Shown here: positions 41,387 through 42,519 of the stretch, in pieces
Numbering within the stretch: the first letter of the stretch is position 1
How the letters are laid out: every line of letters begins with the position of its first letter
Notes under the pieces: generated by a model
Told to the model about the DNA's origin: nothing
Seen by the model: only the letters and a program-made list of their open reading frames with translations
Database searches by the model: none
Source: Cyanobacteria bacterium GSL.Bin1
GTDB lineage: Bacteria; Cyanobacteriota; Cyanobacteriia; Cyanobacteriales; Rubidibacteraceae
Assembly: GCA_009909085.1 (NCBI GenBank)
Contig: JAAANX010000057.1
Span: forward strand, 1-54,588
Direction: 5' to 3'
Length of the DNA: 54,588 nt
Program-made: the position numbers and the translations under genes

Positions 41387-41480
41387 GGTAGTGCTATACA
41401 AGTAATGATGCGCTGTAGTGATGGATGAAATACCAAATAGCACCGATGTGATTCTCTAAGGATTTGGAAAAGGACAAGGT

Positions 41481-41530
41481 GTCTTGGCGAGCATTCCCTT
41501 GCGCCTAACGGCGACGCGGGGTCTCGCCGC
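41481..41530. repeat. 50-bp GC-rich palindromic insert in IS1
   Basis: Lies between the codons for VRK and TLSFSK of the transposase. Outer arms GGCGAG (41486) and CTCGCC pair, and the interior is rich in GCG. It shifts the frame. Confidence 0.6.
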
Positions 41531-41578
41531 TTTTCGGACTAACCGAGACCCTCTTTGCCGCAATGTGTTGTTGAATCG

Positions 41579-41623
41579 ACGGACATCTTATGGGAGCGAA
41601 TTGAATTCGCCCCCCGTGTCCTT
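41579..41623. repeat. 45-bp palindromic insert in IS1, frame-preserving
   Basis: Lies between SYIE and RFNN of the transposase. The core GCGAATT/AATTCGC surrounds a single G, and the right flank is CCGTGTCCTT. Exactly 45 bp, so 15 codons are added without a stop. The same flank and AATT-type core occur at 2289-2325 inside the ISKra4 relic. Confidence 0.7.
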
Positions 41624-41707
41624 CTCAATATAGCTGGTTTTTCCGGTTTCTTTACCCACCGCTCGATGACGCTTGCTAGGTAGAACTGCTGCATAGGCTG
41701 CCCAAAA

Positions 41708-41840
41708 GTGCGGAAGGCATCTTCACCAACGGTCAGGCTTGTGAGCCGGAATTGAATTCCGGCTCACAAGCCTGACTGCGTCGCTTCGCTCCTCGCTCCA
41801 GCCCGCTTTCCAGCTTGAATGCATTCAAGCTGGGTCGGCA
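41708..41840. repeat. 133-bp insert with two perfect palindromes in IS1
   Basis: Contains a perfect inverted repeat of 22-bp arms around one G (41732-41776, centre GGAATTGAATTCC) and a perfect 24-bp palindrome (41810-41833, centre GAATGCATTC). It separates YTD from FWAAY of the transposase. It may be two elements nested or side by side. Confidence 0.8.
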
Positions 41841-42062
41841 GTCAGTGTAGGCGATTGCACACTGGCGATAGAGTGGCGGCAAAGATTCCCACAATTTGCG
41901 AGCAGCGGCTTCATCGCGTGCGCCAATATAAACACCAACAATTTCACGAGTGTTGGCATCGAGTGCTAACCAGACCCACTGCTTGTTCCCCTTGTTGTCC
42001 ACGAATGACCAAAGCTCATCAAATTGGATCGTTAGTCTCCCTGTCTTGAGTGTGTCTTGCAT
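41733..42062 (-). pseudogene. IS1-family transposase, InsB-like catalytic part (interrupted)
   Basis: Starts TGRLTIQFDELWSFVDNKGN and QWVWLALDANTREIVGVYIG, the IS1 DDE region, up to CAIAYTD at 41841. A 133-bp palindromic insert then replaces the next codon. The true continuation reads FWAAYAAVLPSKRHRAVGKE from 41707 down, then TGKTSYIE, a 45-bp insert, FNNTLRQRGSRLVRK, a 50-bp insert, and LSFSKSLENHIGAIWYFIHH. All fragments are recognisable and in order, but the protein cannot be made. Confidence 0.85.
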
Positions 42063-42135
42063 TCTGGAGGGGCTGTGTGCGGAATTACTTCCGCACCTTG
42101 AAAGCCCCGTAGGGAAACCCCAGAATTACACACTC
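42048..42135. repeat. About 88-bp palindromic insert in IS1
   Basis: Outer arms GAGTGTGT/ACACACTC and ATTCTGG/CCAGAAT. The inner hairpin is GTGCGGAA/TTCCGCAC (42077-42084 with 42089-42096). It separates the two transposase parts. Exact limits are uncertain because the native junction is not known. Confidence 0.6.
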
Positions 42136-42437
42136 GCTTTTTTGGGTGCCACCTGCACTTGCCGAAGCCCCTTCGCATATTTTTCGTTGACGTAGGTTTG
42201 TAACCATTGTTCAGAAACCTGAGTAGCACGAGCAATACCCGCTAAAGAGATCCGCTCTAACAGCAAGCGGTCAATCAGTTCCCGCGTGGCTTGGTCGATG
42301 ACTTTTTTAGTGGGTTGTTTAATAAACTGTCGTTCGCAGTCGTGGCATTTGAATCGCTGTTTACCGTTGTGGATGCGACCATTCTTGACCGTTTTGGCGG
42401 ATGCGCACATAGGGCAGGCATAGTGAGTAAAGAACAA
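42126..42437 (-). pseudogene. IS1-family transposase, InsA-like part
   Basis: A 103-residue zinc-finger/HTH part: HYACPMCASAKTVKNGRIHN, FKCHDCERQFIKQ (two CxxC pairs), and LLLERISLAGIARATQVSEQ. It ends VQVAPKKASV at a stop created by an inserted palindromic segment. In an intact element it would run into GRLTIQFDELWSFV. Confidence 0.85.
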
Positions 42438-42519
42438 AGGCTCTACTTCTCTATCATTACATCTTGAGTACTACCCGATAGTCTAAACTGTATACTTAGA
42501 CAGTGGGAGTAGATGACAA

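Follow-up and report, generated by a model that had tools for sequence, protein, structure and literature searches.

Short palindromic, probably mobile elements of several families at recurrent sites of an IS1-family element and in other transposase genes of a cyanobacterial genome

The window analysed here (the whole stretch of 54.6 kb, on contig C57 in the 4.82-Mb genome of Cyanobacteria bacterium GSL.Bin1, assembled in 210 contigs) contains an IS1-family element that is far longer than the roughly 770 bp expected for IS1, which raises the question of what the additional DNA is and how it came there. A previous sequence-only reading had recognised four palindromic inserts and ascribed them to a single small non-autonomous element that either prefers dispensable or transposase DNA or has a hairpin-type target in it. 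We argue that this IS1 copy has probably been invaded by several families of structured, non-autonomous mobile elements of about 45-84 nt that belong to this cyanobacterial group. In the following, G denotes a genome searched, C a contig (of the window's own genome when no G precedes it) and L a locus; the inserts are called i1 to i4 and the families F1, F2, F3, F4o and F4i.

The InsA zinc ribbon (PF03811, 1.4e-6) and the IS1 DDE domain (PF03400, 2.3e-7) both scored above cut-off on the minus strand, and the named IS1 relatives with the best scores are cyanobacterial. The terminal repeats of the element are imperfect (18 of 26 bases identical), and no target duplication of 8-9 bp was seen around it, the flanks being AGTAAGATTTCC and CGATAGTCTAAA; the duplication may have decayed. 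The element was aligned by MAFFT with six uninterrupted copies (L097, L099, L100, L102, L070 and L068), and runs of at least five columns missing from at least five of these six were taken as inserts. Four inserts of 50, 45, 133 and 94 nt were delimited in this way (Table 1), and their removal leaves 1089 - 322 = 767 bp, the length expected of IS1 and anticipated by the sequence-only reading. The borders proposed there were exact for i1 and i2, off by 1 nt for i3 and, for i4, where they had been given as approximate, off by 5 nt and 1 nt. The inserts are absent from the uninterrupted copies and are thus not fixed parts of IS1; in the nearest of these, L097 of Myxacorys almedinensis (81% coding identity to the window copy), every site is empty. 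The A-run at the InsA/InsB junction, at which i4 is found, is present in the uninterrupted copies. The window copy has broken frames, because i1 comprises 50 nt and i3 133 nt, and it encodes no intact transposase; three further copies in the same genome (C1, C73 and C151) are partial. InsA of L099 (Leptolyngbyaceae M33_DOE_097) carries a distinct insert of 24 nt that is missing from the window copy and from the other five reference copies. The window also contains 34 HIP1 octamers (GCGATCGC).

Table 1 Features of the IS1-family element in the window
Feature	Coordinates	Strand	Description
IS1-family element, host of the inserts	41387..42475	minus	ends GGTAGTGCT / AGTACTACC; 1089 bp
InsA ORF, 103 aa	42126..42437	minus	zinc ribbon PF03811; stop end within i4
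InsB N-terminal ORF, 109 aa	41733..42062	minus	PF03400; ATG start in i4, runs into i3
i1, F1 element	41481..41530	plus	GTCTTG-stem-CATTCCCTTGCG...CGCGGGGT-stem-CGC, within T-run
i2, F2, 45-nt palindrome	41579..41623		delimited by alignment with uninterrupted copies
i3, 133-nt composite	41707..41839	plus	long form of F3 enclosing a second hairpin; AGT at each junction
F3 end module within i3	41803..41840	plus	CCGCTTTCC-stem-GGGTCGGCA
Perfect inverted repeat 22+1+22, hairpin nested in i3	41732..41776		two 22-nt arms, one central base
i4, composite at the InsA/InsB A-run	42043..42136	minus	F4o outer hairpin split by F4i
F4i hairpin, nested at the F4o tip	42068..42111	minus	copies outside F4o too

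The inserts belong to different families, F1, F2, F3, F4o and F4i, so that the proposal of one element does not hold, and since i3 and i4 are themselves nested, at least six insertion events are required. The perfect 45-bp inverted repeat, previously taken for an entire insert, does exist and is a part of i3; hairpins resembling it occur at C50 and C121, and the F3 long form is found without a nested hairpin at C56. Hairpins also sit within hairpins where F4i occupies the tip of F4o and, in genome G052, where one F1 lies inside another; the idea of a hairpin-type target is therefore correct in part, having overlooked the fixed IS1 sites that are used recurrently (see below). The empty site of i1 in the reference copies reads GACAAGGT/TTTTCG, the slash marking the point of insertion, and the junctions of i1 and i2 are clean. 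At the four window sites, neither a longer target duplication nor the terminal repeats of a parent IS were observed. The opposite strand of F4o shows the end motifs of F1, with GTCTTG on one side and, on the other, CGC and then the T-run. It was considered whether F4o is a fixed part of IS1, and this was rejected, as the uninterrupted copies lack it and as copies of it lie at C83, C189 and C149 with no adjoining IS1 match. An Rfam search gave no family at the gathering score; five sub-threshold models of miRNA precursors around the perfect inverted repeat were taken as chance. Close to its 3' end F4o contains an ATG (reading MQ[DE]xLKT). In the window copy (42060-42062) this is the start codon of the InsB ORF; it is also present in the copies at C35 and C83, and at C35 it is preceded by GGAGG about 10 nt upstream. 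F4o could replace frameshifting by re-initiation. In the IS1 copies of C35 (L008) and C4 (L002) extra palindromes of the GCGATGGC / GCCATCGC kind were noticed besides F1, F3 and F4o.

A covariance model of F1, built from nine copies, found matches in 18 of 60 genomes (the window's own included), with up to 97 candidates scored in each: 17 in the own genome and, these large counts being lower bounds, at least 95 in G052, at least 25 in G056 and at least 20 in G058. The model of the F3 end module matched 9 of the 60 genomes, the own again included, with 21 matches at 20 places in the latter. Other copies of F4o in the own genome lie at C35, C1, C83 and C189 with a partial one at C149, and F4i occurs outside F4o at C32, C188, C104, C128 and C61. 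Further copies within the genome, on which the mobile nature of the inserts had been made to depend, thus exist for i1, i3 and i4. For i2 the own genome yielded partial matches of 22-23 nt and no confirmed second copy; its full-length relatives are found in two IS1 copies of G006, at C25 (L180) and C175 (L185), and all F2 elements found to date lie at one IS1 site. In keeping with the earlier description, the inserts are small, palindromic, repeated elsewhere and devoid of coding capacity for a transposase. The F1 and F3 models matched nothing else in the 54.6-kb window than one F1 row in i1 and four F3 rows in i3. Among 80 named IS1 loci the F1 model had no match, and in the plasmid collection it matched one record, from Chondrocystis NIES-4102. 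In this plasmid (AP018282.1, L366 2381-2640) annotated IS1 genes follow closely downstream of F1. The element itself is placed within a zinc-finger reading frame of InsA type, whose annotated gene begins only downstream of the insert.

As delimited, the units measure 51 nt (F1), 51 nt (F4o), 45 nt (F4i), 54 and 84 nt (F3) and 45 nt (i2), each length being divisible by three, with the ends of F1, F4o and F4i uncertain by about 1 nt and with 50 nt for the window F1 and 133 nt for i3 by alignment. F1 mostly starts with GTCTTG and F3 with GTGCGG; the base before F1 is T in 37 of 44 distinct full-ended copies. At three loci of G052 (L262, L263 and L273) F1 is located at the centre of a GGGCG[TC]...ACGCCC palindrome with further pairing, apparently itself a repeat, and at L206 and L224 in tandem heptamer-like arrays of the CCTATTG and CTTCTGC kinds.

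The F1 stem is maintained by compensatory change. In 68 distinct rows, about half of which come from one genome and all of which were fitted to the model in the alignment, 97.5% of cells are paired and 9 of 14 pairs have changed on both sides; double-change cells number 80 versus 22.3 in shuffles, none of 500 shuffles was as high on any measure, and the pairing signal is lost when the structure is slid along the alignment. Four compensated pairs each were found in F3 (5 sequences) and F4i (8 sequences).

For each of the four insert sites of the window there is at least one further IS1 copy with an insertion at that site. At the i1 site, an IS1 end of G052 (L072) contains F1 as its first half, with the same junction within 1 nt, and F2 takes the position of i2 in both IS1 copies of G006, another genus. 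In a tree of 65 IS1 copies, in which support near G006 C25 is low (0.36-0.83) and G006 C175 aligns poorly, these two hosts group neither with the window copy nor with one another, G006 C25 adjoining the uninterrupted L127 and L130. The i3 composite lies at the same codons (Y-T-D/F-W) in the window and in C4, the two composites being 94% identical with the same apical stem; their host elements share 62% identity over 232 codons (pS 0.85, pN/pS 0.29) and are placed apart in a separate tree, the window copy being the sister of the insert-free L097 (0.943) and C4 that of L118 in the other main clade (0.988). The same codons are occupied by F1 in C35 and its sister in G001 (L216) and are empty in L085, L180, L097, L118 and L144. 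F4o interrupts the A-run of the window copy, C35 and C1, and not that of L216, L085, L144, C4, C151 or L180; its stem is the same in C35 and C1 and different in the window copy. Because C1 branches outside L085, C35 and G001, while C35 and C1 share one stem, at least two insertions of F4o, and most simply three, are needed. As the hosts belong to different, mostly insert-free branches, insertion recurred at the same sites. F1 was also found at other points of IS1 in the G052 copies L289 and L295, recognised with Pfam. Outside the window copy, 3 of the 36 F1 and F3 matches in the own genome fall into IS1 copies (C4 and C35) against 0.011 expected (Poisson P 2.5e-7; one place is counted twice, base composition is ignored and the families were first picked from the window IS1), which agrees with the earlier view that such a load exceeds chance.

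IS1 is only one of the hosts. F3 lies within transposase genes at 11 of its 20 places in the own genome: in IS1 (window, C4 and C35), DDE_Tnp_1 (C100 and C204), HTH_29 with DDE_3 (C145), DDE_5 (C83) and TnpB (C128, C188, C119 and C56), leaving out C61, with TnpB on one side only, and C54, C90, C80, C33, C147, C185, C192 and C51. For F1 this applies to 6 of 17 places (window, C35, C37:51063, C82, C103 and C208), the remaining places counting as weak matches, as unscanned loci or as loci with no transposase hit. We call the occurrence of F1 and F3 in transposase genes of this genome a concentration and not an enrichment. Overall their host families comprise DDE_Tnp_1, DDE_5, DDE_Tnp_1_2, DDE_3, TnpB, ISL3, IS1 and IS240, and in G052 and G048 F1 was found in or beside genes of CobN, a chorismate-binding enzyme, P450 (two copies), D-Ala-D-Ala ligase and a ketosynthase.

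Reading frames were followed through 90 F1 and 30 F3 copies. Among those flanked on each side by at least 60 open codons on one strand (30 of F1 and 13 of F3), the frame continues through the element in 18 of 30 and 10 of 13 cases, respectively, together 28 of 43 (a tally that includes four G045 copies from one event), and 15 of 43 are out of frame. Openness in all six frames was considered as a selected trait and dismissed, most units not exceeding shuffles and the F3 long form being marginal (P 0.04). In the D-Ala-D-Ala ligase of G052 the sequences before and after the F1 peptide can both be aligned to relatives of solved structure, the P450 of the same genome aligns around its second F1, and in TnpB of C128 the F3 peptide follows the YED motif, which we take to be RuvC-II, where the relatives have a short stretch. 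The TnpB genes with F3 at C128, C188 and C119 are about 91% identical, the four G045 copies of TnpB with F1 92-97%, and three insert-bearing ISL3 copies of G052 about 99% over parts; some IS have multiplied while carrying the insert. The inserts do lie largely in transposase DNA, as had been suggested; the term 'dispensable' is too narrow, because F1 and F3 are often in frame within ORFs, those of the ligase and P450 included, and because the IS that carry them have multiplied.

Three other explanations have to be weighed. Gene conversion or template switching may have passed the inserts at shared sites from one IS1 copy to another, only the first insertion being a transposition. Recombination among IS1 copies could indeed mimic some of the same-site insertions: the composites of the window and C4, with their 94% identity and common apical stem, would fit it, and the F4o of C35 or C1 could have been copied from the other, or inherited with two losses. 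However, there is no converted tract beside i3, where the two sides agree at 46/60 and 39/60 positions (15 and 14 of the nearest 20), the window F4o has a stem unlike that of C35 and C1, and the sites used in the window are occupied by F2 in a different genus and by F1 in a different genome, for which conversion within a cell would need transfer. We therefore consider conversion quite improbable as the general explanation. Passive decay, in which repeats merely happen to survive in dead IS1 DNA with no preference, is in keeping with the broken frames of the window copy, which has no intact transposase, and with the partial state of C1, C73 and C151; the recurrent use of the same sites, the presence of F3 in frame within otherwise open transposases and the multiplication of insert-carrying IS copies speak against it and make it highly improbable.

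The elements could also be MITEs or REPs of the ordinary kind, in which case they would be degenerate forms related to a single autonomous IS or to a RAYT (REP-associated Y1 transposase) that mobilises them. Insertion without a long duplication fits single-strand transposition. The own genome has six Y1 matches, and the two genomes without Y1 (G015 and G053) are also without an F1 match; moreover, RAYT subclasses are present in cyanobacteria according to sections of PMC6006769, and GTAG repeats are known there according to sections of PMC3733652, both of which count in favour of this explanation. Against it, the aligned F1 and F3 copies bear no GTAG or CGTC end tag, F1 is present at 3 of 36 Y1 loci and F3 at 1 of 17, the three strong cases among these lie inside the neighbouring tnpB rather than bordering the Y1 gene, and G054 combines 22 Y1 matches with none of F1. 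Of 20 chosen genomes, 18 contain Y1 transposase genes, whether they are rich in F1 or free of it. On balance the MITE or REP explanation seems unlikely.

The preferred reading, an invasion of IS1 by several families of mobile palindromes, suggests the following mechanism. The moving enzyme would recognise the folded single strand and join it into short target motifs, for F1 mostly after T, for F4o in A/T runs and for F3 at GT, and would create either a target duplication of 1-3 nt or none. Every IS1 copy would offer the same A- and T-run motifs, above all the A-run needed for frameshifting. In frame, the hairpin peptide would cost little, and the IS would then transport the palindrome to new places. 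As the candidate mover we tentatively suggest, as a first guess, a trans-acting single-strand-DNA enzyme; movement via an RNA route is a second and rather unlikely guess. A strand bias of F1 between replichores was looked for in G052 and discarded, the 77 copies listed showing no contrast between the two arcs (P 0.31). A wider interpretation, which we put forward with more doubt than confidence, is that of a guild of structured palindromes homing to transposons, which would repeatedly enter fixed IS1 sites including the frameshift A-run, mostly keep the frames, be dispersed by mobile IS, nest in one another's hairpins and depend on a putative mover that recognises the fold.

Apart from REPs, the known cases of mobile palindromes within genes come chiefly from Rickettsia. 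Empty sites, recurrence at the same sites and in-frame copies in transposases together make target choice, peptide tolerance and the identity of the mover testable in cyanobacteria, and they would offer a concrete case of second-order parasitism, with hairpins spreading by riding on insertion sequences.

Among the known systems, the repeats SDR1-8 of Nostoc punctiforme, described by Elhai et al. in 2008, reportedly show compensatory stems, self-nesting and occurrence in heptameric repeats, and are said to be 21-27 nt long. The elements described here resemble them in nesting and in compensatory variation of the fold (in F1, and in F3 and F4i on 5 and 8 sequences, respectively); their units, at 45-84 nt, exceed the reported SDR length. 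SDR5 is inserted precisely within HIP1 according to a portion of PMC4390886. Rickettsia palindromic elements (RPEs) are, in excerpts from PMC10969869 and PMC3733652, in-frame palindromic repeats of protein genes with several families per genome, to which the in-frame insertion in 28 of the 43 ORF-flanked F1 and F3 copies is similar. The RPE sequences of R. conorii end in CGTC (excerpts from PMC3733652), and metabolic genes harbour RPEs of about 150 bp (excerpts from PMC10969869), whereas the present elements are about 45-84 nt long, have no CGTC tag and in this genome lie mostly in transposases where the host was resolved. Intragenic REPs of the GTAG and CGTC superfamilies are likewise short palindromes within ORFs, sometimes two per ORF, as passages of PMC3733652 describe, but F1 and F3 lack both tags; for CGTC repeats and other transposase genes the same passages mention only a fortuitous association. 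Cyanobacterial MITEs such as Nezha, some of which form ORF fusions (passages of PMC10969869), are small non-autonomous repeats as well, and may differ in that the four window sites show neither the terminal repeats of a parent IS nor a longer target duplication. Since the CGTC and GTAG tags and the reported SDR length do not apply, the elements were assigned to none of RPEs, REPs and SDRs. Among the open-licence papers searched we found none on palindromes concentrated in cyanobacterial transposase genes, and relative to the literature covered the new features are the presence of several families together, the many transposase hosts, the recurrence at the same sites including the IS1 frameshift site, and the spread of decorated IS.
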